A stretch of 64,000 nucleotides of DNA, taken from Planococcus halotolerans. Lineage in GTDB: Bacteria > Bacillota > Bacilli > Bacillales_A > Planococcaceae. The stretch covers positions 62,001-126,000 of the forward strand of contig NZ_QLZR01000002.1 in assembly GCF_003289955.1 (NCBI RefSeq), read 5' to 3'. Positions 25,150 through 59,060 of the stretch are shown piece by piece. The notes below the pieces were generated by a model, which was given only the letters and a program-made list of their open reading frames with translations, was not told the DNA's origin and made no database searches. Each line of letters starts with the position of its first letter. The first letter of the stretch is position 1. The position numbers and the translations under genes are program-made.

Positions 25150-25233
25150 GATATGTAGCAAAACGGCGCAGACGCCCAGGGGACCAAGCTCAGCCCAAGC
25201 CCCCCATGCAAGCAAGCTGTTTTGCGGAATATC
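25150..25233 (+). repeat. Mosaic repeat, copy R1 (core only)
   Basis: 84 bp bounded by imperfect 18-bp inverted repeats: GATATGTAGCAAAACGGC on the left and GCTGTTTTGCGGAATATC on the right (14 of 18 pair). This is the shortest plus-oriented copy of a five-member family and has no flanking module. It lies just upstream of the thiamine riboswitch. Confidence 0.8.
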
Positions 25234-25324
25234 ATGTTTACAAAATACCCTTTACTTCCCCCCTCCCTTCATTTACACTAGAGCCATCGGGACAACCCGA
25301 ACACAAAAACCGCATACCGTTTTC

Positions 25325-25414
25325 TGCACTGGGGGTGCTTATTTAGCTGAGATGCGAGCGAAAGCTCCGATCCCTTATGACTCGATCAGGTTAGGACCTG
25401 CGTGAGGAAGTGCG
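25325..25414 (+). promoter_or_regulatory. TPP riboswitch
   Basis: The conserved THI-box elements occur in order: GGGGGTGC, GCTGAGA, ATCCCTT, GATCAGGTTAGGACCTGCGTGAGGAAG. TGCACT at the start can pair with AGTGCG at the end to form P1. It stands about 120 bases before ykoF, whose product family binds thiamine, and controls a thiamine-precursor transporter, as known for ykoFEDC. Confidence 0.92.
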
Positions 25415-25474
25415 GTGACTTTCCGCAAAACGAACTTTTCAGGAGCTAGTATCTCCTTTTAATTTGCATGGAAC

Positions 25475-25509
25475 AGTGGCTGCATCTTCACGGATGCGGC
25501 TATTTTTGT
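25475..25509 (+). terminator. TPP riboswitch terminator
   Basis: GTGGCTGCATC and GGATGCGGCTAT form a hairpin followed by TTTTTG, between the aptamer and ykoF. A smaller GGAG/CTCC hairpin at 25442-25456 may belong to the antiterminator. Thiamine pyrophosphate binding should favour termination. Confidence 0.8.
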
Positions 25510-25535
25510 GCACATTTTTAAGGAGGAATATTGTT

Positions 25536-26147
25536 ATGGAACCATTGCAATGCGGCACGAGCCCGATTGTCGGATTTCGCTTCACGCTCAATCCGATGTC
25601 CGGCGATTTCATCAAAATCATCAAAGGGGCGCTGAACGACACCGACACCTCGAATGTTTGGATGCACACCGATGACGTATCCACTGTCATCCGCGGAAAA
25701 CAGATTCACGTCTTCAATGTGGCGAAAGCATTGACTTTGCATGCAGCGAAAACAGGAGAACATGTAGCATTGAATGGTACGTTTTCCATCGGCTGCCCGG
25801 GAGATACTTCAGGAGATGTCTACCTCGACAAAGATGATGAGTTGTTGAATACGGATAACACAAAGCAGTATGTATCGTCGCAGTTTGCTCTTTATCCGAT
25901 GAACAATCCCGATTATATGAGCGTCATTTACCGTGAAGTGGAACGGGCAAAAGAACACGGCGTCTGGAACGATTCGATGCATTACGCCAGCGGCATCCAC
26001 GGCGATATACATGATGTCTTCGCCTTTTTTGAAGAATCATTCACTCATGCACGTTCTGATGAACATCGCCATCTCGTCATGACGGTCTCCATGAGCATCA
26101 ACAGCCCTTCTCATGCCAAAGCTGATGGAGGAAAAGCCGATGCTTAA
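25536..26147 (+). CDS. ykoF: YkoF, thiamine/HMP-binding protein
   Basis: 203 residues. The start PLQCGTSPIVGFRFTLNPMSGDFIKII and the two repeated halves (residues ~5-95 and ~105-195, each with GxxF/ALYPMxNPxYM-type strands) match YkoF, a duplicated thiamine-binding fold. AAGGAGG lies 9 bases before the ATG. It is first in the TPP-riboswitch-controlled ykoFEDC operon and probably binds the hydroxymethylpyrimidine moiety or thiamine for the transporter. Its last codons overlap ykoE by 8 bases. Confidence 0.9.
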   Translation: MEPLQCGTSPIVGFRFTLNPMSGDFIKIIKGALNDTDTSNVWMHTDDVSTVIRGKQIHVFNVAKALTLHAAKTGEHVALNGTFSIGCPGDTSGDVYLDKDDELLNTDNTKQYVSSQFALYPMNNPDYMSVIYREVERAKEHGVWNDSMHYASGIHGDIHDVFAFFEESFTHARSDEHRHLVMTVSMSINSPSHAKADGGKADA

Positions 26148-26721
26148 ATCGTGGAAACTGAAGGAAATCGTATTGATGTCACTGTTCGGAGTCGTGTTTG
26201 GTATCGTCTACCTGTTATTCATCCACCTCGGCAATATCTGGGCAGGGCTGATCGGCCCCATCGCCTATGAATGGATGTTCGGCATCTGGTTTATCGTTTC
26301 AATCATCTGTATGCACATTATCCGTAAGCCAGGCGCTGCCTTAATTCCCGAAACCATGGCCGCAATCATCGAAGTGATGCTCGGTAATGCGGTCGGTCCG
26401 CGCCTTATCCTTTCCGGGATTGTTCAAGGGCTCGGCGCTGAAGCAGCTTTTGCTGTGACGCGTTACCGCTACTTTAATATTTTCGTCTTTATGCTTGCAG
26501 GTATCGGTGCTGCAGTATTCAGCTTCATCTACGGTTATTTCGTATCCGGCTATGCGGCACTGGATCCTTCGTTCGTTGCGCTGATGTTCACGCTGCGCGT
26601 ATTGAGCGGAGCAATCATCGCAGGCATCGGCGGCAAATACATCGGCGATGCGCTGCTTGCGACCGGTTCACTGCGCGGCTACGCCATTGCCCGGACACAA
26701 CCGCGTGATGCCAATGCCTGA
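26140..26721 (+). CDS. ykoE: YkoE, ECF transporter substrate-binding membrane subunit
   Basis: 193 residues, five or six hydrophobic segments, beginning SWKLKEIVLMSLFGVVFGIVYLLF as in the S component of the thiamine-precursor ECF transporter. AALIPETMAAIIEVMLGNAVG is a family-typical loop. GGAGG lies 8 bases before the ATG inside ykoF. It pairs with the ATPase YkoD and the membrane coupler YkoC. Confidence 0.9.
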   Translation: MLKSWKLKEIVLMSLFGVVFGIVYLLFIHLGNIWAGLIGPIAYEWMFGIWFIVSIICMHIIRKPGAALIPETMAAIIEVMLGNAVGPRLILSGIVQGLGAEAAFAVTRYRYFNIFVFMLAGIGAAVFSFIYGYFVSGYAALDPSFVALMFTLRVLSGAIIAGIGGKYIGDALLATGSLRGYAIARTQPRDANA

Positions 26722-28144
26722 CACTATCTTTGAAATGAATAATGTCAGCTTCCGTTTTCCGGATGACCAATCACCGACATTATCATCTATTTCTTTTACC
26801 ATCGAGCGCGGCGAACGGGTCGCCATTTCCGGTCCCAGCGGTTCCGGCAAGTCGACTTTGCTGTATTTATTGAACCGGCTCTATCCTGCCAATTGCGACG
26901 GCATCGTGGATGGCGAAATTCACTCTTTCGGCAAACCGGCAGATTCTTATGCACCTGGAGAAATCAACCACCGAGTGGCTACCGTTTTTCAGGATCCGGA
27001 TTCGCAGTTCTGCATGCCAACGGTCGAAGAAGAACTTGCCTTCACTCTTGAAAATTTAAATACCCCGGCAAGCGAAATGGCGGAACGTATCCGTCATGTC
27101 CTGGACATAACCGGTCTGTCCCACCTTCGCCATGTTTCGATCCAAACACTTTCTGGCGGAATGAAACAGCGGGTTGCCACTTCCTGTGCATTGGTCATGA
27201 ATCCCGAAGTCCTGTTGCTTGATGAACCGATTTCGCATCTCGATCCATATACCGGGAAAGAATTTGTCCTTTGGCTCGATCAATTGCAAAGGACGTTCAA
27301 TCTGACAGTCATCGCTGTTGAACATAGGCTTGATTATTGGGGAACATTTTTTGAGCGTGAAATTAAGATAACAAGCGATGGCAGAATTTCAGAAGATGCC
27401 ACCTTCGAGCCGCACGAGATTTTGCGTTACCCGCTCCGGCTCCATTCAATACTGGATGAGACTGCTTTATCCGCGACGGGTCTTTCAGTAAAGATGAAAG
27501 GAAATACTCTGCTCCAGCCGGTTTCATTCCATGCGCAAAAAGGAGAATGCATCGTCATAGCGGGACCAAATGGCAGCGGGAAATCGACATTGGTGAAAGC
27601 GATCTGTGGCACCTATAAAAAAGAAGCCGTGAAATTTGCATCAGACCCGTGTGGCTATGTACCACAATCACCAGAATTTTTGTTTTTAACTTCAACAGTC
27701 CTTGACGAAATGGCTTTTGGCGGAATGTCTTCCAAACTGGAACTGGATGATCTGATGAAGTCTCTCCGGTTAACGGAAATCAAAGAACAAAATCCATTTT
27801 CCGTCAGCCATGGCCAAAAACGCCGGGTGGCGATCGGGGCGATGCTTGCGGATAAACGAAATATACTGTTTCTCGACGAACCGACTTCAGGGCAGGATGA
27901 AGGAGCTTTATTGAAACTGTTCCGTCTTATCGACAGCCGATTGGACCAGGGAGATACCGTTTTTATCGTGACACATGATATGGAGTTTGCCGCCGCTGTC
28001 GCTGATTCTATTGTGCTGTTGAAGGACGGCAGAATGACAGGGAAATTCCTTGCCGATAGAGTGTGGCAGGATCCGGAACTGCTAGCAGCCCATAACCTAT
28101 TGCCGCCGAAAGGAATGATGCGCCGTGCAGAATCTTTTGCATGA
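26714..28144 (+). CDS. ykoD: YkoD, duplicated ECF-transporter ATPase
   Basis: 476 residues with two ABC ATPase domains fused. Domain 1 has Walker A GPSGSGKST, signature LSGGMKQR and VLLLDEPISHLD. Domain 2 has GPNGSGKST, a variant signature VSHGQKRR and ILFLDEPTSGQD. The duplication provides both ATPase halves of an ECF transporter. The ATG at 26714 overlaps the ykoE stop; translation is probably coupled, as no strong ribosome site is visible. ATG 26708 is an alternative. Confidence 0.9.
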   Translation: MPDTIFEMNNVSFRFPDDQSPTLSSISFTIERGERVAISGPSGSGKSTLLYLLNRLYPANCDGIVDGEIHSFGKPADSYAPGEINHRVATVFQDPDSQFCMPTVEEELAFTLENLNTPASEMAERIRHVLDITGLSHLRHVSIQTLSGGMKQRVATSCALVMNPEVLLLDEPISHLDPYTGKEFVLWLDQLQRTFNLTVIAVEHRLDYWGTFFEREIKITSDGRISEDATFEPHEILRYPLRLHSILDETALSATGLSVKMKGNTLLQPVSFHAQKGECIVIAGPNGSGKSTLVKAICGTYKKEAVKFASDPCGYVPQSPEFLFLTSTVLDEMAFGGMSSKLELDDLMKSLRLTEIKEQNPFSVSHGQKRRVAIGAMLADKRNILFLDEPTSGQDEGALLKLFRLIDSRLDQGDTVFIVTHDMEFAAAVADSIVLLKDGRMTGKFLADRVWQDPELLAAHNLLPPKGMMRRAESFA

Positions 28145-28883
28145 TATGAATCCTTCTTTAAAGTTCATCACGGTGACAATTGCGATGCTTGGTCTCGCAT
28201 TTTTCTTCAATCCATGGACGCCGTTGCTGTTCTTTTTCAGTATCCTCGTCCTTCAGCTCATTTTCAGCAGAATCAACTGGAAACTTTGGAGCTTGTTCAT
28301 GCTTCCTTTTGTGATCGGCGCATTCGGCTATTTGTGGACGACGATTGTCTTTGGTGCTGAAACGGGAGGCACTGTTATCTGGTCACTGTTCGGCTTTGAT
28401 GTGACGGATGAACAGTTAGCATTAGCCTTATCACTGTCGTTCCGTGTTCTGGCATTTTCCTCCCTGTCTCTGCTGTTCGCTTTGACGACGGATCCCGTGA
28501 AATTCGTTATGAGTCTGATGCAGCAGCTCAAGCTGTCGCCAAAACTCGCTTACGGTGTACTTGTCGGCTATCAATTTCTCCCTGTGCTGAAAGATGAATT
28601 CTTTCAGATCCAACAGGCCCATCGCCTGCGCGGAGCCGCCGTTGAAAAATTCTGGTGGCAGCGGGTTCTTGGCGTTCGCAGAATCATTATCCCGATGCTT
28701 GCCGGAGCTGTAAGAAAAGCGGAACGCTCCGCTTTTGCGATGGAAGCGCGGGGATTTACCGGTGAAATGCGCAAAGAGTTTTTCCAGCCTGTGTCCATAA
28801 AGCCGAAAGATTTTGCTTTGTCTGCTGCTATACTGTTGATTTTTATTTCGACATCAATTTTAGGTTCTTTTTTGTCATTATAA
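28125..28883 (+). CDS. ykoC: YkoC, ECF transporter transmembrane coupling subunit
   Basis: 252 residues with five hydrophobic segments. The coupling helices characteristic of EcfT proteins are present (AHRLRGA and AFAMEARGFTG, two Ala-Arg-Gly-type motifs that dock on the ATPases). It starts with GTG inside ykoD (AAAGGA 10 bases upstream); an ATG at 28146 is possible. It completes the ykoFEDC operon. Confidence 0.9.
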   Translation: MQNLLHDMNPSLKFITVTIAMLGLAFFFNPWTPLLFFFSILVLQLIFSRINWKLWSLFMLPFVIGAFGYLWTTIVFGAETGGTVIWSLFGFDVTDEQLALALSLSFRVLAFSSLSLLFALTTDPVKFVMSLMQQLKLSPKLAYGVLVGYQFLPVLKDEFFQIQQAHRLRGAAVEKFWWQRVLGVRRIIIPMLAGAVRKAERSAFAMEARGFTGEMRKEFFQPVSIKPKDFALSAAILLIFISTSILGSFLSL

Positions 28884-29020
28884 TTGAGTCTAAATAGCGT
28901 TTAACTTGTAAATAAATACAATAAATAAGTTCCTATTACCCTACCTATTTTTATATTATTCTATTAAACTAAGGTAGCAATAATATTCTGTTTACTTCGT
29001 ATGAGCTAAACAAAATATTT

Positions 29021-29121
29021 ATTCGCATCTTGTATAAAGGCAAAGCAGTCGAAAGGCTGTGACGCAAAGTTTCAGGCCTGTGGCTCCGGCTAAGGCGGCT
29101 GGGCTGCCGGGAATGGCGAAT
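29021..29121 (+). promoter_or_regulatory. Cyclic di-GMP-I riboswitch (GEMM)
   Basis: The conserved GEMM-I core is visible: AAGGCAAAGC, CGAAAGG, GTGACGCAAAG, GGCCTGTGG, then GGCGGCTGGGCTGCCGG, which forms the second helix with its loop. The outer stem ATTCGC (29021-29026) pairs with GCGAAT (29116-29121). A T tract (TTTTTTT) follows at once, so the expression platform may be transcriptional. It ends 65 bases before an exported protein gene. Alignment by eye to the Vibrio Vc2 aptamer supports this. Confidence 0.85.
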
Positions 29122-29185
29122 GATACTTTTTTTAGTAGAGTTCAATATTCTTTTGCAATGAAAATAAGAACTCGGGGGTAATGGA

Positions 29186-30424
29186 ATGTTGTCAGAACAC
29201 AAAAAAGAACAAGTTTCCAAACAGATCAAGCGTTATTTTGCAGTGGGAATTATGGCATCAGCAGGATTCCTGTCTTTTAATGCAGTTTCTGCTTCTGCTG
29301 ATGAGAATGAAGAACAGGTTCAAAACACCACATCTGAAATTGAAGTTGCTGAAGAGCCGGATTTGGTACCAGGCGATTTCTTTTATTTCCTGAAGCAATT
29401 ACAGGAAAAATTACAGCTGGCTGTGACGTTCGACAACACAGCTGAAGCCGAATTGTTTGCTGAGTATGCAGAACAGCGGATTCTGGAAGCTGAAGCGTTA
29501 ATGGCTGAGGGCAATGAGGAGTTGGCTGTGGAAGCTCTTGAGAAAGCATTGGAGTTGTATGAAGAAGGTCTGGAGCAATTGACTGATGTTGAGGAAGAAG
29601 AGACTTCTGATGAGGCAAGTGACGAAGAAATAAACGTTGGAGACGTTTCTGAGACAGCTGACGATTTGACAGAAGAAGATGCCCGTGCTGCTTTGGAAGA
29701 GAAATTCAACTCTAACTTATTGGCTCTGCAGACGGCCATGGAGAAAGTGACCAATCCGAAAGCGAAAGAAGCGCTCGCTAAAAATGTCGCCAAGGCGATG
29801 GAACGCTTGGAGAGTAAAATTGAAAAAGAACTTGCCAAGTTAGATGAGCCGGAAGAAGAAAGTGAAGCAGATGAAGAAACAGATGCTCCTGTAGAAGACG
29901 AGACTGCAGATGAAACGACAGAAAATGAAGACAGTGCTGAAGAGCAGGCTGAAGTATCCGAAGAAACTGAGGAAGATACGGATGAAGCAACTGATGAAGA
30001 TGAAACAGTACCCGCTCCCCCATCTGATGAAGATTCCGATTCTGATGAGGAGCGTACAGAAGAAGAAAAGACTGCCGCAAAAGCTGTGAAAGCCGAAGAA
30101 AAAGCGACGGTCAAAGATGCAAAAGCTGCCGAAAAAGCGGATGCTGAAGCGAAGCGCGAAGCTGAAAAAGCTGCCGCTGAGTTGAAACGTGAGCAGGAAA
30201 AGGCTGCGGCTGAAGCAAAACGTGAAGCCGAAAAGGCTGCAGCTGAAGCAAAACGTGAAGCTGAAAAAGCTGCCGCTGAGGCAAAACGTGAAGCTGAAAA
30301 AGCTGCCGCTGAGGCAAAACGTGAAGCTGAAAAAGCTGCCGCTGAAGCAAAACGTGAAGCTGAAAAAGCTGCTAAAGAAGAAAAAGGCAAACCAGAAAAG
30401 GCTGACGAGAAATCTAAACCATAA
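29186..30424 (+). CDS. Exported DUF5667-like protein with acidic and EAEKAAAEAKR repeats
   Basis: 412 residues. A signal peptide (ASAGFLSFNAVSASA) ends near residue 38. Residues ~60-130 (DLVPGDFFYFLKQLQEKLQLAVTF..EAEALMAEGN) match DUF5667. A Glu/Asp/Thr-rich low-complexity stretch (~140-290) leads into seven 11-residue repeats of EAEKAAAEAKR type (residues ~325-400), expected to be a long charged alpha helix. There is no LPXTG or C-terminal membrane segment, so cell-wall contact would be non-covalent. GGGGG lies 7 bases before the ATG. The leader has a c-di-GMP riboswitch. It may be a secreted or cell-wall-associated matrix protein (inference). Confidence 0.8.
   Translation: MLSEHKKEQVSKQIKRYFAVGIMASAGFLSFNAVSASADENEEQVQNTTSEIEVAEEPDLVPGDFFYFLKQLQEKLQLAVTFDNTAEAELFAEYAEQRILEAEALMAEGNEELAVEALEKALELYEEGLEQLTDVEEEETSDEASDEEINVGDVSETADDLTEEDARAALEEKFNSNLLALQTAMEKVTNPKAKEALAKNVAKAMERLESKIEKELAKLDEPEEESEADEETDAPVEDETADETTENEDSAEEQAEVSEETEEDTDEATDEDETVPAPPSDEDSDSDEERTEEEKTAAKAVKAEEKATVKDAKAAEKADAEAKREAEKAAAELKREQEKAAAEAKREAEKAAAEAKREAEKAAAEAKREAEKAAAEAKREAEKAAAEAKREAEKAAKEEKGKPEKADEKSKP
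30158..30374 (+). repeat. 33-bp tandem repeat within the KEA-repeat gene
   Basis: Six units of 33 bp and a divergent seventh, coding EAEKAAAEAKR. Three middle units are nearly identical at the DNA level (GAAGCTGAAAAAGCTGCCGC...), which indicates recent expansion or gene conversion. Confidence 0.9.
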
Positions 30425-30475
30425 GATAGAAAAGGTAAAAACAATTGATGCAGTCCATAATTCATTAGCAGTTAA

Positions 30476-30520
30476 AAAGGCAGATCGGATACCTTGTATC
30501 CGGTCTGCCTTTAACATTTT
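30476..30520. terminator. Bidirectional terminator
   Basis: AAGGCAGATCGGATAC pairs with GTATCCGGTCTGCCTT (one mismatch), followed by TTAACATTTT. It ends the riboswitch-controlled gene and may also serve the convergent DUF4362 gene. Confidence 0.8.
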
Positions 30521-30592
30521 ATTAATCATTATCTACATAGAATAATAGAAAACCTTCATAGCCCTCAAATTGGATTGTAATTCATCATACTT

Positions 30593-31084
30593 TTATGATT
30601 TCGGTATTAAAAAGTAAAATGTGCTGCCAACATCCGAAGATGAACATTCTTTCAAACTATACATTGTTCCTTCGTCTGTATTTTCAGATGTAATTTCAGA
30701 ACAAGATGTACTTTGTGCTCCTCTGTCAGCACCCGCATATCCATCTTGCGAGTCATCGTAGGTGTAATTTATTTTATCGCCGTCGAAATTCAGATTATAA
30801 AAAACCGGATCGCCTTCTACCGTATACAATGTAATGCGGATTTCATCTTCAATTCCGGCTTCGAAATTCTCGATAAATTCTTCAAACTTATCCAAGTTGG
30901 TAATTTCACCAAAAATATCAACAACATCCCCATTTTCAATCGCCTCTTCACGAGGATAAGGGCTTTCAGGATTGTCGACTGCAATCGTTGTAGTATCAGC
31001 ACCAGTCGATTGTTGGCATCCGATTAAAAACATTGTGCTAAGCAACGCACCTAACAGGATTGAAAAACTTTTCAATAAAACCAT
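30593..31084 (-). CDS. DUF4362-type lipoprotein
   Basis: 163 residues. Lipobox LIGC at about residue 23. The mature domain NGDVVDIFGEITNLDKFEEFIENFEAGIEDEIRITLYTVEGDPVFYNLNFDGDKINYTYDDS matches DUF4362 (lipoproteins of unknown function). A hydrophobic tail (STFYFLIPKS) closes it. AAAGGA lies 6 bases before the ATG. It is convergent with the riboswitch-controlled gene. Confidence 0.8.
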   Translation of the reverse strand: MVLLKSFSILLGALLSTMFLIGCQQSTGADTTTIAVDNPESPYPREEAIENGDVVDIFGEITNLDKFEEFIENFEAGIEDEIRITLYTVEGDPVFYNLNFDGDKINYTYDDSQDGYAGADRGAQSTSCSEITSENTDEGTMYSLKECSSSDVGSTFYFLIPKS

Positions 31085-31229
31085 CTCCCTTCCTTTAAAA
31101 TATAATTTTCTCTTCTATTATAAATCTTAACATAGGAGCCGAAATATATTCCCTTTTTTTCCCTTCTCAACTTAACTCCACTTTTTGAGTGTTCTTTTTG
31201 GCGACTATCATCTGTATAAATTTTAAAAG

Positions 31230-31255
31230 CAAAAAAAAAAGGCTTTTCAGCCTTC
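31230..31255 (-). terminator. Terminator overlapping the Spo0M-like stop codon
   Basis: On the minus strand AAGGCTGAAAAGCC forms a short hairpin followed by ten T's. The hairpin includes the TGA at 31247-31249. Confidence 0.85.
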
Positions 31256-31666
31256 AATTTTCCCATATGTAATCTCGTCTTCATCGCGTACATCCACGCC
31301 TTCACGGATATGCACAATCGTCCTCAGGATCAGGCGCGATTTATCGGTTTCCACCAGCCATCGCTCATCCGGAACGATTTCGAATTGCTGCATCACCGTA
31401 TCCTTTGATTTGACAGAACCTGCAAACTCCATGGATTGCTTGGATACAACGGTTTCAATGATATTAAAATCACTGTCTTCACGGTAATCATCGATTAATT
31501 TGATGACGTGCAATTCCACATAATCAACTTCCTGGTCGGAGTCTCCCCCTTCGAAATAGATGGTGCCGTTCAAGGTCTCGCCTTCTTCCAAATGCGGCCT
31601 CTCCACTACTGTTTCGACTTTCATCGATCCAAAGCCGATTGATGATAAAAAATCTTTGAATTTCAT
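31247..31666 (-). CDS. Short Spo0M-like (arrestin-like) protein
   Basis: 139 residues resembling the N-terminal half of SpoOM proteins (MKFKDFLSSIGFGSMKVETVVERPHLEEGETLNGTIYFEGGDSDQEVDYVELHVIK). Full Spo0M has two such beta-sandwich domains (about 258 residues); here the gene stops after one. The stop is followed by a clean terminator, so it looks like a genuine single-domain form rather than a frameshift. GGAGG lies before the ATG. Confidence 0.8.
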   Translation of the reverse strand: MKFKDFLSSIGFGSMKVETVVERPHLEEGETLNGTIYFEGGDSDQEVDYVELHVIKLIDDYREDSDFNIIETVVSKQSMEFAGSVKSKDTVMQQFEIVPDERWLVETDKSRLILRTIVHIREGVDVRDEDEITYGKIEG

Positions 31667-31727
31667 TTTAGGAAACCTCCAAATTTTTGTATTACCACTT
31701 TACCACTTCTGGTCTTACCGTAAACGT

Positions 31728-32918
31728 TTAATGCAATTCTGTATAATCGTAATGGTTATCAAGTGCAGGCTCATATTTATTATACCGGCGTTTGAACAGC
31801 TTGAATATATGGGAAACCAGAACACGCAGGATTGCGTAAGCTGGAATTCCGAGAATCACCCCTGCCACTCCGAATAAGGAACCGGCTGTCAATAGGACGA
31901 AGATGATGGTGACCGGATGGATATACAGCGTTTTCCCCATGACCTGCGGTGAAATCACATTTCCCTCCACCAATTGCACCACTGTCCAGACAATCGCCAG
32001 CTTCACCAGCATGAATGGCGAAGTTACTAAAGCGATAATGACTGCCGGTGTTATTGCGATTGCAGGCCCGATATAAGGCACAACACTTGTGAACATTGCC
32101 AGCACTCCGAGCAGAAGCGCATACTTCATGCCGATGATCAGGAAACCGATATAAACCATAACGCCGATCAGGAAGGCAACGATCAATTGACCCTGGATAT
32201 AAGCACTTAACTGCTTATCCGCTTCACCAAATACCTCACGTGTATCGTCGCGCAGCCGCGGCGGCAAAAGTTTCAAAATATATTCCGGAAGCTTTTCGCC
32301 GTCTTTCAGCAAATAAAACAAGATAAACGGAACGACGACAATCGACAGCACAAAGCTGGTGATCGTGGACAGGAAACCTGTAACTCCGGTGATGATGGTC
32401 GTCACCGTATCCTGAAGGATGCCTGCCAGATTATCCGGCAACGTTTCCATCAATTGATCGATATCAAAATTGGATCCGGTATAGTAATCCCCTATATATG
32501 AGGTACGAAGAAACGCATCAATATCCGTCATTAATTGCATGAAGTACTGCGGAAACTCATCAATCAACATTTGGAGCTGCTCCCGCAGGAAAGGCAGGAT
32601 CAAAAATGTGACGAGTGTCAGCAAACCGACGACGCCAAGAAAGATGATCAATATGCCCCAGATTCTTTTGACGCGGAACCGTTCAAGAAGCCTCAGTACT
32701 GGGCGCAGCAGATAATACAAAATCATCGCTAAGGTCACAGGCAATACAACCGTCTGCATAAAGACGCTAAGCGGATTAAATATGAACGAAACTTCCCTGA
32801 ATATGAAAACGATCAAGCCAACCAACAGTAACGCAATTAAAGTAAATAAAGTGTTTCTGCCTCCCAGGAACTGAATGTAGTTCGTTGTAAAAAAGGATGG
32901 CTTTTCTTCAGGTTCCAT
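31728..32918 (-). CDS. AI-2E/PerM-family membrane permease
   Basis: 396 residues, seven or eight hydrophobic segments, with the family's extended soluble loop (YFMQLMTDIDAFLRTSYIGD..) and the conserved GNVISPQVMGKTLYIHPVTIIFVLL near the C-terminus. Family members export autoinducer-2 or small solutes, or act as antiporters; the substrate is not clear. AGGAAG lies before the ATG. It is 60 bases downstream of the LCP gene and may be co-transcribed. Confidence 0.85.
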   Translation of the reverse strand: MEPEEKPSFFTTNYIQFLGGRNTLFTLIALLLVGLIVFIFREVSFIFNPLSVFMQTVVLPVTLAMILYYLLRPVLRLLERFRVKRIWGILIIFLGVVGLLTLVTFLILPFLREQLQMLIDEFPQYFMQLMTDIDAFLRTSYIGDYYTGSNFDIDQLMETLPDNLAGILQDTVTTIITGVTGFLSTITSFVLSIVVVPFILFYLLKDGEKLPEYILKLLPPRLRDDTREVFGEADKQLSAYIQGQLIVAFLIGVMVYIGFLIIGMKYALLLGVLAMFTSVVPYIGPAIAITPAVIIALVTSPFMLVKLAIVWTVVQLVEGNVISPQVMGKTLYIHPVTIIFVLLTAGSLFGVAGVILGIPAYAILRVLVSHIFKLFKRRYNKYEPALDNHYDYTELH

Positions 32919-32978
32919 GGCGCTTCCTACTTTCCCTTTGGACTAATCATTTCTATTTTAGCATATATTCTGATTTAT

Positions 32979-33923
32979 TTACTGCAGGGGCTGGCCTAAA
33001 AATTCACTCAAGGCCTGCCGGTTCTGCTCCAAATTGATTTCGAGCACTGATCCGGCCTGTGCATAATTACCGTAGCTATGGCTGCCTTCAACCGGAATCG
33101 TCAGCCTCTCAATGCCTTCTGTTCCGCCGGTCGCCATATCAGTCGCCAGCTTCACCTGGTCCAGTGCCGGCATATCGGTTTGGACATAGCCTTGTGCAGC
33201 TCCTGCCAGTTTCGGGAACTTGGGAATGGCGGAAACGCTGACCATTTCTTCCTTCAGCGCTGCAAGAACCTGCTGCTGGCGGCGTACACGACCGAAATCT
33301 CCTTCATTATCTGCACGGAAACGGGCATAGCCGAGCAACTCCTTGCCATTCAAACGCTGTTGGCCCTGAGTCAGTGATACACCGATATTCTCAGACATGT
33401 CTTTTTCGACATCTACTTCGACGCCATTAGGCGCAGCAATATCCACTAATTTCTCAAAACTGGAGAAGTCGACTAAAGCATAATGCTGAATTTCCACACC
33501 GAACATATTGCGCAGTGTATCAGCTAACAAATCTACTCCGCCCAGGTAATAAGCTGTATTCAATTTATAGGATTGATATCCTGGAATCTCCGCGTAGATA
33601 TCACGCATGAACGACACAACTTTCACATCATTCGATTCTTTGTTGTGCGAAACGAGCATCATCGTATCCGTACGGGATTTTTCTTCACCGCGGGAGTCGA
33701 CACCCAGTACCAATATATTTTCATAGCCTTCATTTTCTTCATCATTATTAAATTCAACTTCGGGTAAATCCGATTCTTCGGCCAGTTTCTTGCCGCTTTG
33801 ATATTGCATAAAAAAGTAGGCGCCGGCTGCAAGCAGAATAATCAATAGCATGAACAGGATTCCCCGTTTACGGACTCTTCTCTTTTTGCGGCGTCTTCCT
33901 CTAAGTTGGCGTTCTTCTTCCAT
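32979..33923 (-). CDS. LytR-CpsA-Psr (LCP) family protein
   Basis: 314 residues. A strongly basic N-terminus (RGRRRKKRRVRKRG) precedes one membrane anchor. The LCP domain has NILVLGVDSRGEEKSRTDTMMLVSHN, VVSFMRDIYAEIPGYQSYKLNTAYYLGG and LLGYARFRADNEGDFGRVRRQQQVL, with the Arg and Asp residues that bind the prenyl-phosphate substrate. LCP enzymes attach teichoic acids or capsule to peptidoglycan. The ATG at 33923 has AAAGGA upstream; an upstream ATG at 33950 has none. Confidence 0.88.
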   Translation of the reverse strand: MEEERQLRGRRRKKRRVRKRGILFMLLIILLAAGAYFFMQYQSGKKLAEESDLPEVEFNNDEENEGYENILVLGVDSRGEEKSRTDTMMLVSHNKESNDVKVVSFMRDIYAEIPGYQSYKLNTAYYLGGVDLLADTLRNMFGVEIQHYALVDFSSFEKLVDIAAPNGVEVDVEKDMSENIGVSLTQGQQRLNGKELLGYARFRADNEGDFGRVRRQQQVLAALKEEMVSVSAIPKFPKLAGAAQGYVQTDMPALDQVKLATDMATGGTEGIERLTIPVEGSHSYGNYAQAGSVLEINLEQNRQALSEFLGQPLQ

Positions 33924-34108
33924 TAATGACACATTCCTTTCTATATCCATGCCAAATATGACGCATGGGCGATGCAGAAGTTTCCACTTTAAAGTATCGA
34001 CATATCAGTGTAATACAACTCTATATTCATACAGTATAAACAATTTTATTGTCTGTAAACAGTTGCAGTGGTACTATTTCTTTTATGAACGACAGGAGGA
34101 GATGTGTT

Positions 34109-34645
34109 ATGGCAGAGAAAGCGACATTTGCAGGCGGCTGTTTCTGGTGTATGGTTAAGCCGTTTGACCAATTTGATGGAATAGAAAAAGTGGTTTCGGG
34201 TTATTCCGGCGGCCACGTGGAAAATCCTACTTATGAACAAGTAAAGACTGGCACAACCGGCCATCTTGAAGTGGTCGAAATCACATTCGATCCGGAAGTT
34301 TTCCCTTACGAGCAATTGCTTGATATCTTCTGGCAGCAGATTGACCCTACTGACAATGAAGGGCAGTTCCAGGATCGCGGCGATCAATACAAGCCGGCCA
34401 TCTTTGTCCATAACGACAGACAACGTGAAATTGCTGAAAAGTCAAAGCAGGAACTGGATGCAAGCGGCCGATACAATAAACCGGTAAACACGCCGATTCT
34501 TGACGCTGCACCGTTTTATGCAGCAGAAGATTACCACCAGGATTATTACAAGAAAAACTCTGAACATTACCATGAAGACCGTGCACAATCCGGCCGGGAT
34601 GAATTCCTTGATGCCGTTTGGACACAGGAACAAATCGAAAAATAA
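34109..34645 (+). CDS. msrA: Peptide methionine sulfoxide reductase A
   Basis: 178 residues. The catalytic motif GGCFWCM (Cys 11), [23 protein letters not shown] and the C-terminal [10 protein letters not shown] are those of MsrA, which reduces methionine-S-sulfoxide with thioredoxin. The ATG at 34109 has GGAGGAG upstream. It stands alone, ends at a strong terminator and is followed by a mosaic repeat. Confidence 0.93.
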
Positions 34646-34650
34646 TATTG

Positions 34651-34687
34651 ACGGACGCTCCAGAAATGGAAGCGTCCGTTTTTTTAT
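34651..34687 (+). terminator. Terminator of msrA
   Basis: ACGGACGCT and AGCGTCCGT pair around CCAGAAATGGA, with a small inner TCCA/TGGA stem, followed by TTTTTTT. Confidence 0.9.
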
Positions 34688-34729
34688 TTATCTATCTATA
34701 CAAGTTGAACTTAAGAAATAGAACAAATA

Positions 34730-35063
34730 CCGCTTCGGCGCTATGGACAGTGCAAAGATTATGCTCCTGCGCACTGCTCGTGGCAAAGGAGGCGCTAAAG
34801 CGCTCCTTGCCTCCCGCAATAAGGCGAGAAGACTACTCGTCTTCTGTCCTGTCGGCATTCGCCTGCTCCGGAGAGGCGCCTTTGCTGAAAGAAATCTCTA
34901 AAGATATGGAGCAAAACAGCGAAGACTCCCAGGGGATTAGAAACACAGTTGGCTTCCAACTGTGTTTCGAGCGAAGTGCTGAGATCCACTCGGGCGAAGT
35001 GAAACGAGCACGAGTTAGCTTAGCGCAAGCCCCCAGGAACGCGGAGCTGTTTTGCGTAATATC
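34730..35063 (+). repeat. Mosaic repeat, copy R2 (flank module plus core)
   Basis: A left module (34730-34902, opening CCGCTTCGGCGC) is followed by a 161-bp core (34903-35063) bounded by GATATGGAGCAAAACAGC and GCTGTTTTGCGTAATATC. Inside the core is a perfect 12-bp hairpin AAACACAGTTGG/CCAACTGTGTTT (34941-34967). The copy fills the convergent gap between msrA and the GNAT gene. It is plus-oriented and longer than R1. No convincing gene crosses it. Confidence 0.85.
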
Positions 35064-35087
35064 GTTTCTAAGAAGACTTAAATACCA

Positions 35088-35585
35088 TCACCCAAGCAGC
35101 TTCGCCATATAATACTCATCTATGTATTCCCCGTTGACTTTCAACGAATTCTTTTTGATTCCTTCTATTTTAAAGCCCGCCTTCTGATATAAAGCGACAC
35201 CGGCGCGATTATGAATCATCACAGTAAGTTCCAGCCGGCGGATTCCCTTTTCGATCGCCCAAGCATCCAATTGTTCGAACAATCTGGTGCCGACGCCTTT
35301 CCCTCGGCTCGATTCCCCAATGCCGATGGCCAAATACACACTATGGCTCCTCCGCTGTGGACTGTTGCCGATGATGAACAGATACCCCTTCAGTTCCCCA
35401 TCGTCATCCGCCAACAGTATCGCCGATTTTTCATCCTGTTCCATTGCCTCTATTCTTTTGCTTAACTGCTCCGGTGATATTTGGCGTTCACCCGGTTCGA
35501 ACATCATGAAACCCGATTTTTCTGCATCTGCAATCAAGTTCACCAATCGTGCGGCGTCAGCCCTTTCTGCATTTCTGATAATCAC
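35088..35585 (-). CDS. GNAT-family acetyltransferase
   Basis: 165 residues. The acetyl-CoA loop reads IGESSRGKGVGTRLFEQL, and the C-terminal part has NRAGVALYQKAGFKIEGIKKNSLKVNGEYIDEYYMAKLL, as in RimJ/RimL-like and speG-like GNATs. The substrate is unknown. It starts with GTG, with AGGAG just upstream, and overlaps the HAD gene by 4 bases, so translation is coupled. It ends an MFS - HAD - GNAT operon. Confidence 0.85.
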   Translation of the reverse strand: MIIRNAERADAARLVNLIADAEKSGFMMFEPGERQISPEQLSKRIEAMEQDEKSAILLADDDGELKGYLFIIGNSPQRRSHSVYLAIGIGESSRGKGVGTRLFEQLDAWAIEKGIRRLELTVMIHNRAGVALYQKAGFKIEGIKKNSLKVNGEYIDEYYMAKLLG

Positions 35586-36307
35586 TTGTCTCCTTCCTTT
35601 CTGTTGCCAATACTTCCGTTGACAATATCTATGACTTCCAGCAGATCCTGTATTTCATATGTCGGCTGGATTTCGCTGTCATTCTTTTTGCCGTTTGGAT
35701 TGAACCACACCGTATCAATGCCGTAATTTATACCTCCTTGAATATCTGAGGTCAATGAGTCCCCCACAATAATCGTCTTCGTTTTCGCTTCGATTCCTAT
35801 TTTGGAAAAAGCATAATCGAAAATCCCGGAATCCGGTTTTTGATAGCCTGCCTCTTCCGATATGACGATGTGTTCAAAGTGACTGCCAAGTTCTGAATTT
35901 TGAAGTCTCGATTTCTGTACTTCGCCGAAGCCGTTTGTCATAATCACAAGCCGGCAATGCGATAACTCTTCCAAAACTTCAAGGGCACCAGCCATCAGAT
36001 GGGCTTCCTTCCCCAAATAACCCAGATATGTGTTGCTGAACGCAACCGGATCTTTATCTGTCTGATGTTCCAGGAACAAGCGCCGGAACCGCTCCACTCC
36101 AAGTTCCCGCAGCGCAATATTCCCTTGTTCCAGGTCATTCCACAGTACTTTGCTGATTGCCCTGTAACTGTCATGCATGTCGACAAAGCCATTTGGAATC
36201 TTAAAATCCATAAATGTATTATGTAATGCTGCGTGTTCTGATAATGCAAAATCCATTAATGTATCGTCAATATCAAAGATGACGGTCGTGTAAATCTGCT
36301 CTTTCAA
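35582..36307 (-). CDS. HAD-family nucleotidase (YjjG-like)
   Basis: 241 residues. HAD motif I FDIDDTLMDF, motif II MTNGF, the lysine in YQKPDSGIF and motif IV VGDSLTSDIQGG. Length and motif context match YjjG-like noncanonical pyrimidine nucleotidases that clear abnormal (d)NMPs. The TTG at 36307 has AAGGGG 9 bases upstream; a TTG at 36343 overlaps the MFS stop but lacks a ribosome site. Middle gene of the operon. Confidence 0.83.
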   Translation of the reverse strand: MKEQIYTTVIFDIDDTLMDFALSEHAALHNTFMDFKIPNGFVDMHDSYRAISKVLWNDLEQGNIALRELGVERFRRLFLEHQTDKDPVAFSNTYLGYLGKEAHLMAGALEVLEELSHCRLVIMTNGFGEVQKSRLQNSELGSHFEHIVISEEAGYQKPDSGIFDYAFSKIGIEAKTKTIIVGDSLTSDIQGGINYGIDTVWFNPNGKKNDSEIQPTYEIQDLLEVIDIVNGSIGNRKEGDK

Positions 36308-36339
36308 GTCGGATTTCCCCTTTTTAATTCGTATTGATT

Positions 36340-37518
36340 TCAATCAGTTGCAGGTTTTTCTTTCAATAAAAAAGCGAACACCATTAACATGGCAATAAAC
36401 CCAAGAAACAGGCTCAATGAGATCATATGGTTTTGGAATCGGTCATAGAATAAGCCGATGGCAAAAGGCGTAAGCGCGGAAATGATATATCCTCCGGACT
36501 GGATCATCGCAGTCCAGCTGTTGACGTCGTCCGGCGTAGAGTTTTCATCCAACGGCATCATTAATGCCAATGGGAACAAACCTCCGAGTGTGATACCCAG
36601 GCAAATCGCTGCAGGCCAGATAAAGGCAATGCCCGCAAACATCAGCAATAGAACACCAACCGCTCCGAATCCAAGACTGATCATAATCCATAAATGGCGG
36701 CTGGGCCATTTTTCAAGCAGCAGTGGAATCGACAGGTTGCAGGCGATCTGAACTGTCGACATGACAGTCAGGACCGCACCGGCAACCAGGATCGACATCC
36801 CTTTTTCGATGGCAATCGGTGCAAGCCAGGTAATGATGGAAAAGAACAACGCCGACTGGAAACCGAAAAACAGAAGCATATACCACGCACGCCTGTTTTT
36901 CCATGGTGAAACGACAGCAATGCCTTCCAGCGGTATTTCATCTACTTCGGCTGCCGGCTCCTTAACGCGAAGCCATAAAATAATCGCTGCTACCGACAGC
37001 AGCCCCCAGCTCGCCAATGCAAAAGGCCATCCCGCGACCGCATAAAAGACGCCCGTTAATCCCGCTGCCAATGTTGCCCCGAGCCCCATTCCGAATGAAT
37101 AGACGCCGATCAACGAAGCTGTACGCGTCGGGAAATTTCTTTTGATCATCGCAGACAGCAACGGGCTGATGATGGCTATCGATAAACCGATAAAAAATGC
37201 ACTGGCAAGCAGAATTGGATAGGTTGGCAAAAAGCCGCGCAGCAATGTGAATGCCCCTATCGCCGTCAATAGAATTGCGATGGATTTTTTCAGTCCCAGC
37301 TTCTTATTGAAAACGACTGCCAGCGGCGCAAACAAACCCATGCAGAAAACCGGCACCGAGGTAAGCAGGCTTACCTGGCTGCTGGTCAGTGAAAGATCTG
37401 CCCGTATCGTATCCAGCAGCGGGCCGATTGAAGATATTGCCGGACGCAAATTGATGGAGACAAAAAGAATCGCCAGAACCATTATGCCAAGCGCGGATTT
37501 TTTTTGCTTGTCTGTCAA
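36340..37518 (-). CDS. MFS transporter (CynX/NimT-like)
   Basis: 392 residues with 12 hydrophobic segments. NLRPAISSIGPLLDTIRADLSLTSSQVSLLTSVPVFCMGLFAPLAV is characteristic of the CynX/NimT cyanate/nitroimidazole branch. First gene of the operon. The TTG at 37518 has AAAGGGG 10 bases upstream; other start choices lack a ribosome site. The substrate is not known. Confidence 0.83.
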   Translation of the reverse strand: MTDKQKKSALGIMVLAILFVSINLRPAISSIGPLLDTIRADLSLTSSQVSLLTSVPVFCMGLFAPLAVVFNKKLGLKKSIAILLTAIGAFTLLRGFLPTYPILLASAFFIGLSIAIISPLLSAMIKRNFPTRTASLIGVYSFGMGLGATLAAGLTGVFYAVAGWPFALASWGLLSVAAIILWLRVKEPAAEVDEIPLEGIAVVSPWKNRRAWYMLLFFGFQSALFFSIITWLAPIAIEKGMSILVAGAVLTVMSTVQIACNLSIPLLLEKWPSRHLWIMISLGFGAVGVLLLMFAGIAFIWPAAICLGITLGGLFPLALMMPLDENSTPDDVNSWTAMIQSGGYIISALTPFAIGLFYDRFQNHMISLSLFLGFIAMLMVFAFLLKEKPATD

Positions 37519-37606
37519 AATGTAAACACCCCTTTCCGACGCCAATCAAACTTGTGTTCGCCACAAAAATTTATTAAAATAAAAGCAGTGAAAGGCGGTT
37601 ACATCT

Positions 37607-37843: not shown

Positions 37844-37880
37844 CAATTTTATAATATGTAAGTAAGAATCTTTGGTAAAC

Positions 37881-38124: not shown

Positions 38125-38255
38125 ATGATTAGAATTTCTCTTTTCGAACCACACTCTTCCCTTTTAGTTTAACGAACACCGCGTTCAGATGCTATCTGTT
38201 TTTGACCATTTCATGGTATACTAATGGCATTGTGAAATTTAGGAGGTACGTATTA

Positions 38256-39863: not shown

Positions 39864-39870
39864 GCCAAAA

Positions 39871-39915
39871 GAAATCCCGCCACACATTCCTCTGGAGTGT
39901 GTCGCGGGATTTTTA
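39871..39915 (+). terminator. Terminator of ykpA
   Basis: AAATCCCGC..CACACATTCC pairs with GGAGTGTGTCGCGGGATTT, followed by TTTT. The left arm shares 15 bases (GAAATCCCGCCACAC) with the hairpin at 40221. Confidence 0.87.
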
Positions 39916-39935
39916 GCTTGTTATACTAATTAACC

Positions 39936-50269: not shown

Positions 50270-50483
50270 CCCATTCGACCGCCTTTTGGCTCTTCTTACC
50301 TAATCATGACAAAAAAATGGAACCTCTGCAACGCAGAACTACCAGAAGCTAAAATTTATCAAAGCTCGGACAGGAAATTGTTAATGTGTAAGTTACAGTG
50401 AGTTTATCGAACAAATACTAATAAAGAACTACCATGAATTTCAGCGGAATATCGACTACCTAGTTTATCTTAATTATCAATAT

Positions 50484-56539: not shown

Positions 56540-56543
56540 TAAA

Positions 56544-57509
56544 TCACTCTTTTCTTTTGGCAAATTGCTCAACAACTACAGAAATCTCCTCAATGAATTT
56601 CTCATATTGCCGTTGTTCATCCAGGATTTCGAAAGCTGTAAATTCACTGTCCACTTGTTCTTCTTCCCATTGGAATTCGTGTACAGAAAGCCTGGTCGCA
56701 TTCCCGGTCAGCAACAATTCAAAAGTATCCCCGCTTTTATTGACGGTGCATTTCACCATTCCTCCCGGATTATAGACAGCCACTTCGCCAAAAGGCACCA
56801 TATCCGACATGCAGCTGATGAGGGCTGAAGCAGTCATAGCGGTTCCACAGGCATTGGTGAAGCCGACGCCGCGTTCATAAGTGCGAACAAAAATGCCTTG
56901 CCCGACCTTAGTCACATAGCTGACATTCACGCCGTCTGAGAAATAATTATTCTGCCCATTGAATTTTTCAGCCCATTTCTTCTGATGTTCGGGAGACTTT
57001 TGAATTTCTTCCGGAACAATGCCAATTAAATGAGGATTAGGCACCGCAACTGCAGAAAACATGATTTCTTCGGATATTTCAGGAATCGCCTGCTGTATCA
57101 ATGTTGTTTGATTGTCATATTCCATCGGCAAATCCTTCAACTGAAATGAAACCGGCGAAATTTGAACGGAGTAAGTTTCGATTCCGTCCATTAATGTTTC
57201 TTCTCGTCTGACTGCCAAATCGGCTTTCATCGTTTCGATAACCGCTTCGTCCACACCTTCTTTTTCACAAACATAGCGCGCTACACAACGGAGGCCGTTG
57301 CCGCACATCGATGCTTCTGACCCGTCACGGTTGAACACCCGCATTTTGGCATGGGCGGAATTGGAGGGAAGAATCACCAAAAGACCATCAACTCCCTGAT
57401 CCTTCGCACAAAGCTGAAGGGCAAGGTTGGCATAATCGTCTCTTTCTTCCCCATCCACCATGTAAAATGTATTCATCGATCCATGGACTTTTTCCAAAGT
57501 TATTTTCAT
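56544..57509 (-). CDS. dapF: Diaminopimelate epimerase
   Basis: 321 residues. The catalytic cysteines are in ASMCGNGLRC and TNACGTAMTA. It converts LL- to meso-diaminopimelate for lysine and peptidoglycan. Compared with typical DapF (about 275-285 residues), it carries an extra ~40-residue C-terminal tail (FQWEEEQVDSEFTAFEILDEQRQYEKFIEEISVVVEQFAKRKE). The ATG at 57509 has GGAG 8 bases upstream. It lies 16 bases after murG and overlaps closely with the diguanylate cyclase gene. Confidence 0.93.
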   Translation of the reverse strand: MKITLEKVHGSMNTFYMVDGEERDDYANLALQLCAKDQGVDGLLVILPSNSAHAKMRVFNRDGSEASMCGNGLRCVARYVCEKEGVDEAVIETMKADLAVRREETLMDGIETYSVQISPVSFQLKDLPMEYDNQTTLIQQAIPEISEEIMFSAVAVPNPHLIGIVPEEIQKSPEHQKKWAEKFNGQNNYFSDGVNVSYVTKVGQGIFVRTYERGVGFTNACGTAMTASALISCMSDMVPFGEVAVYNPGGMVKCTVNKSGDTFELLLTGNATRLSVHEFQWEEEQVDSEFTAFEILDEQRQYEKFIEEISVVVEQFAKRKE

Positions 57510-57525
57510 ATCACTCACTCCATTA

Positions 57526-58608
57526 TCAGCGTTTCTTTGTGTGCGCTACGACTAGTTTTGCCATTTCATAGGCAGTTTTGGGAGGCTCTGCATCTGTCAT
57601 TTTTTCGATTAGCAATTCTTCATCAGCCTTCAGTTGTTCCAAAGCTTTCAAAAATCGTTCAGGGGTAGCTTCTTCTTCTTCAAGCACAAGAGCAAAGCCG
57701 TTTTTCCGGAACAATTCTGCATTTAGGATCTGGTCTCCCCTGCTTTTTTGTCTGGATAATGGAATCAGCAGCATCGGCTTTTTCAAAGCCAAAAATTCAA
57801 ATATCGAATTGGATCCTGCGCGTGAAACCACAAAATCAGTCATATGAAGAAGATGGGACAATTCATGGGTGACATATTCAAATTGGCAGTATTGATCCAT
57901 GCCTTCCAATTTTTCATCGATATTGCCTTTTCCGCAAAGATGGATGACGTTGAAGGTTTCCAGTATAACTTGCAGATTTGACCGGATGGCCGTATTGATC
58001 ACTTCGGACCCCTGGCTTCCTCCCATTATCATCAGCACCGGGAGATCATTATCGAAATGACAGATTTCCCGACCTTTCGCAGCAGATCCATCCATTAATT
58101 CACTGCGGATGACTGAACCTGTACAAGTGGATTTCTCTTTTGGCACATGCTGCATCGTCTCTTTAAAAACAGTGAAGATGTGATCCGCAAAAGGCATAGC
58201 AATCTTGTTGGCAAGACCGGGTGTTACATCCGATTCATGGATAATGACTGGAATACCCATCAGTTTTCCTGCCATAGCCACCGGAACCGAGACAAAACCG
58301 CCCTTTGAAAATATGGCAGCGGGTTTCGTCTTCCGTATTATGTTCATCGATTGCCCAAGACCGGCAACCACCTTGAACGGATCTGTAAAATTCTTCATTG
58401 AGAAATATCTTCTTAATTTACCGCTTGAGATAGCGTGGTATTTTATGTCGGGAAAGGAGTCGACTATCAATTCTTTTTCAATCCCGTCTTTTGAACCGAT
58501 GTATTCGACATCATAGTCCATGCCGGTAATTTCAGGTATTAAGGCCTGATTGAGTGAAACATGGCCGGCAGTTCCACCGCCAGTCAGTATAATCGTGCGT
58601 TTATGCAT
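57526..58608 (-). CDS. murG: UDP-GlcNAc lipid-I transferase (MurG)
   Basis: 360 residues, GT28 glycosyltransferase: TGGGTAGHVSLNQALIPEI, AIFSKGGFVSVPVAMAGKLMGIPVIIHESDVTPGLANKIA, GGSQGSEVIN and SRAGSNSIFEFLALKKPMLLIPL. It adds GlcNAc to lipid I to make lipid II. It is placed outside the usual dcw cluster and directly before dapF, so it may be a second MurG-type gene in this genome, which I cannot check here. AGGATTTTAGC precedes the ATG. Confidence 0.92.
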   Translation of the reverse strand: MHKRTIILTGGGTAGHVSLNQALIPEITGMDYDVEYIGSKDGIEKELIVDSFPDIKYHAISSGKLRRYFSMKNFTDPFKVVAGLGQSMNIIRKTKPAAIFSKGGFVSVPVAMAGKLMGIPVIIHESDVTPGLANKIAMPFADHIFTVFKETMQHVPKEKSTCTGSVIRSELMDGSAAKGREICHFDNDLPVLMIMGGSQGSEVINTAIRSNLQVILETFNVIHLCGKGNIDEKLEGMDQYCQFEYVTHELSHLLHMTDFVVSRAGSNSIFEFLALKKPMLLIPLSRQKSRGDQILNAELFRKNGFALVLEEEEATPERFLKALEQLKADEELLIEKMTDAEPPKTAYEMAKLVVAHTKKR

Positions 58609-58678
58609 GCTAAAATCCTACTTTCATCTTTTGATTTGTCCTAAATTGAAGTTGAAGACCAAAATTATCTTATATATA

Positions 58679-59060
58679 CCGCTTCGTCGCTTTGGACAGT
58701 GCAAAGATTATGCTCCTGCGCACAGCTCGTCGCAAAGGAAGCGCTAAAGCGTTCCTTGCCTCCCGTAATAAGCCGAGAAGACCACTCGTCTTATTACTCC
58801 GGTCGGCATTCGCCTGCTCCTGAGCCGCGCCGGCGCTGGAGATCTCTCTAGAGATATGAAGCAAAACAGCGAAGACGCCTTGGGGAGCAGGCGAATGCCG
58901 ACGAAGTGCAAGATCCACTCGGGCGAAGTTCAACGAGAACGAGTTAGCTTAGCGCGAGCCAAGAGTTGGCCGCAGCCTGCAAGGCCGGCTCTTTGCGACG
59001 AAGCTAGCGCAGCGATGCAGGAGCACGGGTTTTGGCAAGCGAGCTGTTTTGCGGAATATC
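58679..59060 (+). repeat. Mosaic repeat, copy R5 (longest)
   Basis: Flank module 58679-58852 (CCGCTTCGTCGC start) and a 208-bp core 58853-59060 bounded by GATATGAAGCAAAACAGC and GCTGTTTTGCGGAATATC. It contains the submodule 58991-59029 shared with R3 and R4 and a segment shared with R2 (GATCCACTCGGGCGAAGT...). It occupies the divergent gap between murG and the MATE gene. Confidence 0.85.

Follow-up and report, generated by a model that had tools for sequence, protein, structure and literature searches.

A structure-conserved intergenic cassette of Planococcus carried in two kinds of putative transposon shell

Five intergenic repeats with inverted ends lie in a 64,000-nucleotide stretch of the Planococcus halotolerans genome (contig NZ_QLZR01000002.1, positions 62,001 to 126,000; here the window, C10:62001-126000 of genome G000), and they raise the question of whether such repeats are mobile DNA, a structured RNA or both. 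A preliminary description of the window had reported five cores, R1 to R5, each bounded by imperfect 18-bp inverted repeats, as "MITE-like elements or a structured RNA family" (MITE, miniature inverted-repeat transposable element). Both halves of that alternative find support together in presence/absence between relatives, in transposases with matching ends, in target duplications and in a covarying fold that may or may not act as RNA. The elements are very probably non-autonomous MITE-like DNA transposons that carry one shared, structure-conserved cassette in shells with the ends of IS630- and IS1182-type insertion sequences (IS).

The coordinates, lengths and orientations of all five cores were reproduced (Table 1). 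At up to 3 mismatches the window has 13 occurrences of the half-site GATATnnnGCAAAACAGC, compared with 2.68 (standard deviation 1.51) in shuffled sequence, none of 100 shuffles reaching 13, and ten of these sites are the ten ends of the five cores, one end of R3 having 3 mismatches. In the whole genome the half-site was found 150 times at up to 2 mismatches, versus 8 times for a reversed control pattern. The family is not one of five copies, as had been described: in the stretches listed around matches, 59 facing pairs of half-sites were found in this genome at up to 4 mismatches, some of them doubtful, and 55 paired copies were counted under a stricter pairing rule. The left end of the core is mostly GATATG(G/A)A and the right end mostly GATATT(C/G/A)C, and since the two ends differ the element is polar. 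The cassette so delimited, GATAT...ATATC, measures mostly 122-162 bp. The copies display the traits of MITEs in being short, non-coding and multi-copy with inverted ends. The intergenic placement holds for R1, R3, R4 and R5, which lie between open reading frames (ORFs), whereas R2 is overlapped by a mechanical frame of 164 aa with a TTG start, the only overlap with a core among ORFs of at least 110 aa in 23500-42000 and 57000-61000.

The 18-bp repeats had been taken as the bounds of the mobile unit. Instead they enclose an internal cassette, and they are ruled out as transposon ends by clean junctions that fall outside them. The repeated sequence extends past the cores of R2 to R5, and most cores are embedded in larger elements of two kinds, which were told apart from the flanks of the copies. 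In form A TATAAGTTGAACT is followed by a left module rich in hairpins (ACCGCTTCGGCGC...GCTGAGAGAAATCTCTAGA), then by the core and, some 30 bp further on, by AGTTCAACTTATA. In form B GGCTGTCGAGAAAC is followed by a left module containing CTTTCCGCGGGGAGCGG...CCCGCAGGAGTC, often by a stretch resembling TTTATAGAAAGTGATTCTAA, then by the core and, after some 30 bp, by TTTCTCAACAAGCTG. R2, R3 and R5 are of form A and R4 is of form B, and R1 has no recognisable shell. R2, R5 and R3 have a long left part in common, with 80% identity over 307 bp between R2 and R5 (BLAST), and a typed form of the form-A left module gave 43 whole or partial matches in the genome. The comparison of shells was made on at least 177 non-redundant copies, 55 from this genome and at least 122 from other genomes, which are part of what exists. 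A motif rule placed 79 of the 177 in form A, 41 in form B, 2 in both and 55 in neither; at 2000 random places the rule gave 20 false positives for the A end, 20 for the A module, 4 for the B end and 78 for the B module.

One and the same cassette is found in both shells. The best secure pair of cores from different forms, L221 (form A) and L156 (form B), both of Planococcus koreensis, is 97% identical over 124 bp and shows no recognisable likeness outside GATAT and ATATC. More generally, the nearest core belongs to the other kind of shell for 14 of 28 form-B cores and for 22 of 54 form-A cores. The nearest neighbour comes from the same species for 36 of 115 cores, compared with 16.9 by shuffling, and this weak excess allows some homogenisation of cores but is too weak to be the whole story. 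Ten of the nearest pairs of cores have the left flank in common and could be orthologous. The cassette was either captured repeatedly, or taken up once by each shell and homogenised by gene conversion to the end of homology; no event of capture of the cassette by a shell was found.

What the shells have in common is a fold. In an alignment of 34 cores from other genomes, mostly Planococcus, from which three sequences with another interior were left out, the core is a conserved imperfect hairpin, here called the rod, of 40 pairs with 96.3% of cells paired. Two-sided changes occur at 11 of the 40 pairs (shuffled mean 4.9) and in 46 cells (shuffled mean 11.0), values that none of 500 shuffles reached, and sliding the partner by 1-3 columns destroys the covariation signal. 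Further pair types taken alone are not exceptional (73 of 500 shuffles). The mismatched loops ATCC opposite TAG and G-AGAC opposite AAGCG vary little or not at all among these cores. Among 16 matches, mostly distant ones (13 loci), two-sided changes were seen at 34 of the 40 pairs and in 184 cells compared with 55.7, in an alignment (A3) that was fitted to the model and favours structure, so that a sliding control, with at most 40 cells, is the fairer yardstick.

Presence/absence at orthologous sites was seen for R2 to R5, R4 being the clean case. The closest relative compared (G005), 93-96% identical in the best syntenic pieces, is without R3, R4 and R5. The junction is 37837/38125 at the R3 site and 58639/59106 at the R5 site, where G005 has 22 other bases. 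At the R1 site the same relative has another copy with a different interior, and in the R2 gap it has a copy inverted relative to that of this genome (window 34685-35085 versus L139 12122-12421), which reflects either independent insertions or an inversion; the R2 site is empty in G043 (L142). A copy of G005 at a site matching window position 19599 is missing from this genome. The outcome that only the five loci exist, without any empty sites, was looked for and did not occur. A scar at window 50425-50470 (...CAGCGGAATATCGACTACC) corresponds to the right end of an element preserved whole at the orthologous position in G005 (L140), and this genome has therefore lost a copy by deletion. An insertion in G005 opposite window position 50444, as the difference could be read, is ruled out, since it is a deletion in this genome.

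The R4 site lies between two convergent genes, which have a single terminator between them in G005, G036 and G042. In G000, G043 and G025 an element lies between two copies of the terminator stem. Its orientation in G025 is opposite to that in G000, so that insertions probably reached this terminator on two or more occasions. Both form-B ends were recognised, at up to 4 mismatches, in 19 of the 177 copies, and 13 of these have matching outer flanks with scores of 12-37, compared with a maximum of 10 in 342 mismatched pairings. The matching flanks are hairpins of 23-37 bp in 12 of the 13 (e.g. AAAAAACGTCCATCAATTTCTTGATGGACGTTTTTGC in L253), and the match in L183 is of only 12 bases with no stem. 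A test blind to the ends, applied to the 164 of 177 copies with enough flank, found 18 with a flanking direct repeat scoring at least 14 and a stem of at least 7 bp, versus 0.06% of mismatched flanks. In the flank pairs of L156 and L203 the two copies differ by compensated stem changes, as would be expected if both duplicates have remained in use. The target of form B was accordingly found to be a hairpin or terminator, and as judged from sequence form B tends to lie between two copies of one predicted Rho-independent terminator, the whole terminator in clear cases. This is not the replacement of a hairpin known from IS1272, with partial loss and no duplication, as the hairpin stands on both sides of the element in clear cases.

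A search for a transposase with matching ends had been proposed in the preliminary description, and form-A and form-B ends were indeed found on IS of congeners, the match being with the outer ends and not with the 18-bp repeats. DUF772 (PF05598) gave 26 matches in 12 of the 46 genomes of the genus, and three of these 26 loci, L262, L263 and L264, from three congeners, carry form-B ends (up to 2 mismatches) 1.5-1.65 kb apart with two frames of 190-196 and 249-255 aa. L262 and L263 each stand between two copies of one terminator. Their frames match PF05598 and PF13751, and in an NCBIfam scan of these two loci their best match was NF033551 (IS1182 transposase, in two halves; E 3e-60 to 5e-73), each frame alone being below the 270-bit whole-protein cut-off. 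DDE_3 (PF13358), which we take to be an IS630-type domain, gave 8 matches in 6 of the 46 genomes. Among these 8 loci, three distinct IS copies from two genomes (L288, L289 and L294/L295) carry form-A ends separated by about 1.12 kb, and TA stands outside each end. Both form-A ends are present in 17 of the 177 repeat copies, of which 14 have TA beyond the left end, 9 beyond the right end and 7 beyond both. By these likenesses form A appears to have the ends of certain IS630-family IS and tends to sit at TA, and form B carries what match as the ends of certain IS1182-family IS. Right after the IS1182-type element of L262 and its second terminator copy, another form-B left end and a rod match (36.1 bits) are found at 2800-2975, perhaps a serial insertion at one terminator.

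Several observations weigh against the interpretation of the repeats as transposons carrying a folded cassette. By the motif rule the 55 copies without either shell include R1, and 6 of the 19 form-B copies fail the flank test; in one of these six (G000 C10:132209) the left end had been misplaced, and the ends-blind test recovers a duplicated terminator. L264 is flanked by two different hairpins. The "empty" sites of R3 and R5 are not letter-exact, and some presence/absence differences are losses, given the deletion scar at 50444. A duplication of TA by form A is likely and not proven, TA standing on both sides in 7 of 17 copies. Most members of alignment A3 differ in the inner part, in addition to the fitting to the model mentioned above. 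Domain searches with PF05598 and PF13358 gave no match in this genome or in G005, and the elements in this genome are probably stranded because neither transposase domain was found in it. Most copy-rich genomes are likewise without a matching IS, G036 being an exception for form B, and it is on this account that we infer mobilisation in trans.

If the core itself were mobile, its transposase acting on the 18-bp repeats and the shells being older or chance neighbours, the exact core borders common to both shells would be explained, as would the conservation of one further base beyond each side of the core (A 92%, G 88%) and the copies with neither shell. We regard this as quite improbable, as clean junctions, where present, lie at shell ends (R4), no neighbouring facing half-sites 450-3500 bp apart were found in the sequence taken, and no core-only empty site was seen in 12 site comparisons (of 132 candidate rows), though no dedicated search was made. 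A transposase between neighbouring facing half-sites was also considered, and none was found in the sequence taken around the copies. A different objection concerns the fold, since long imperfect hairpins are prone to quasipalindrome correction, in which a template switch during replication copies one arm onto the other, and covariation could then arise without selection on the fold. The wholesale change of outer stems between genera fits such copying, which could make some of the covariation. It should, however, have removed the conserved mismatches, and the internal loops show little or no variation across the 34 genus cores, with the ATCC/TAG loop recurring in L350, L320 and L325 of other genera. 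Correction is therefore an unlikely source of the signal. The conserved fold and loops could also be those of a single family of expressed small RNAs, acting in trans as RNA and spreading as DNA only incidentally. A sub-threshold likeness of L350 to Staphylococcus aureus tsr24 (40.2 bits, cut-off 50) points in this direction. Against it stand the use of both orientations and of several kinds of gap, and the lack of any Rfam 15 match at E ≤0.5 in the part of the window that contains R2, R3 and R4 (34600-40300); this explanation too has little probability in our judgement.

The distribution of the fold is wider than that of the terminal sequence. Exact half-sites occur in 44 of 46 genomes of the genus, at 0 to 191 per genome. 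A covariance model built from the 34-core alignment (designated R2, like the core) found all five window cores at 35-104.5 bits and rods in 46 of 46 genus genomes, in 169 of 250 family genomes at E ≤0.001 (14 of 19 genera, with up to 13 candidates scored per genome) and, at E ≤0.0001, in 44 of the 299 genomes sampled from the class, of which 26 do not belong to the family. In the class-wide sample rod repeats are present in 16 of 118 genera. Confinement of the family to the genus is therefore nearly true of the exact half-site but not of the fold. Two genomes of the same genus, G013 and G030, have no exact half-site yet 11 rod matches each, and the fold therefore seems to outlive the terminal sequence. 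Thirteen loci from other genera were read, 12 in the family and one (L350, G498) from the 26 genomes outside it. GACTCC is present in all 13 and GGAAAGCG in 11, and the ATCC...TAG loop with its flanking stem in L350, L320 and L325 only. L349 (Paenisporosarcina) has kept the Planococcus outer stem; in the other loci the outer stem is different, and so, in most of them, is the inner part. Bacillaceae-1 RNA (RF01690) was found above cut-off near rods in two other genera (L316 2069-2135 and L324 1165-1231). Carriage by plasmids or phages was discarded, as the R2 element had no match in either collection at the sensitivity of blastn.

The rod most likely acts as a folded nucleic acid. Our first guess, a tentative one, is that it could be an RNA-level insulator or a small RNA, and a second and more doubtful guess is that it may be a DNA-level aid to transposition. 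RNA is hinted at by the fold being polar and not a plain palindrome, and by a hairpin module that L262 and L264, not L263, have between the left end and the first transposase frame; these modules have sub-threshold tsr24 matches (28.0 and 30.9 bits), although covariance model R2 did not report the module stretches at E up to 0.5. The likeness of L350 to tsr24 is a third hint towards RNA, and none of the three is decisive. One may speculate further, with more reserve than for the transposon interpretation, that the rod is a cassette conserved in structure across the class Bacilli, in effect a "parasite of transposons" that resides with exact borders in at least two unrelated DDE families. It would then represent an undescribed nucleic-acid family with tsr24 as a distant relative, and one of its carriers would duplicate entire terminators, the host genes staying terminated.

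With regard to mechanism, IS630- and IS1182-type DDE transposases from elsewhere in the population would cleave at the shell ends and carry out the insertion. Staggered cuts by the IS1182-type enzyme at the two feet of an extruded hairpin are probable, and subsequent repair would copy the whole terminator, both neighbouring genes keeping one. Insertion of this kind would do next to no harm, which could account for the high copy number. The small repeats of Gram-positive bacteria are usually classified one at a time, each as the MITE of a single IS. Here one cassette occupies two shells that differ in their target rules, so that the question of what mobilises it can be kept apart from the question of what is conserved within it, and the second can be put to the test. 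The duplication of a whole terminator is an insertion beside genes that leaves neither without a stop signal, and it suggests that the transposase recognises a hairpin in its extruded form.

In the whole window only two Rfam families were found above the gathering cut-off, a thiamine pyrophosphate (TPP) riboswitch at 25321-25425, just downstream of R1, and a cyclic di-GMP (c-di-GMP-I) riboswitch at 29029-29111; no family matches the cores. The positions of the repeats and their parts are collected in Table 1.

Table 1. Repeat cores, enclosing elements and associated features in the window (bits are scores with covariance model R2)
Feature	Position	Strand	Remarks
R1 core	25150-25233	+	84 bp, internally deleted rod; 67.2 bits
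R2 core	34903-35063	+	161 bp, rod and extra hairpin GAAACACAGTTGG/CCAACTGTGTTTC; 104.5 bits
R3 core	37881-38017	-	137 bp; 35 bits
R4 core	39936-40017	-	82 bp, internally deleted rod; 64.7 bits
R5 core	58853-59060	+	208 bp, rod and additional hairpin module; 47.4 bits
R2 full element, form A	~34699-35084	+	left outer end TACAAGTTGAACT; right end decayed, right limit approximate
R3 full element, form A	37838-38140	-	ends decayed, limits approximate
R4 full element, form B	39915-40221	-	right end GCTTGTTATAC at 39915; left end ..TTTCTCGACAGACTG to 40221
R5 full element, form A	58640-59089	+	right end TTAACTTATA at 59080-59089; left limit approximate
Form-A left hairpin module, R2	~34730-34902
Form-A left hairpin module, R3	38018-38122	-
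Form-A left hairpin module, R5	58680-58852	+	80% identity over 307 bp between R2 and R5
Terminator copy 1 beside R4	39872-39914		stem as in copy 2, loop differs
Terminator copy 2 beside R4	40222-40258		single copy here in G005, G036 and G042

Among the open-licence papers listed there was no description of this repeat or of Planococcus repeats in general, nor a common name for the class-wide rods. The closest known relatives of form B are IS1272 and TnSha1 of staphylococci, of the IS1182 family, which are reported to enter hairpins, often transcription terminators, with the hairpin partly deleted or replaced and no target duplication (PMC4923244, PMC5678879); some IS1182 members target palindromes according to a review cited in the former (PMC4923244). 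The transposase family and the choice of hairpin or terminator targets are alike, but the whole hairpin is here on both sides in clear cases where none is duplicated there. If IS1182 has the long direct repeats that ISfinder lists for it, the duplication of a whole hairpin may be less new than it looks.

Nearest in style are BOX, RUP and SPRITE of Streptococcus pneumoniae, which are described as non-coding folded intergenic elements that insert into one another (PMC10969869, PMC3049150). The likeness is drawn by analogy, and the Planococcus elements differ in having one core in shells of two transposase families and a duplicated terminator. BOX is modular, and RUP is linked to IS630-Spn1. In the Bacillales, bcr1 and other repeats of the Bacillus cereus group are presented as intergenic and foldable with traits of mobile elements (PMC2267715, PMC4666352). 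REP/RAYT elements are palindromes of 20-40 bp with a Y1 transposase, and the size and paired ends of the Planococcus elements argue against membership.

The arrangement GACUCC..GGGA..CCC..GGAAAGCGAAG is common to S. aureus tsr24 (Rfam RF02577) and distant members such as L350, but the score of the latter is below the gathering cut-off and window 34600-40300 has no match to the family. Sequences similar to GACTCCTGCGGGA...CCGCGGAAAGCG, presumably a widespread Bacillales repeat for which we know no name and found no printed account, are among the distant covariance-model matches from other genera (L317, L324); these differ in their outer stems and mostly in the inner part. The form-B left module itself scores 35.9 bits with covariance model R2 in L158. 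Compared with all of these systems the combination is new, one folded cassette being present in both IS630- and IS1182-type shells, with an apparently whole terminator duplicated.

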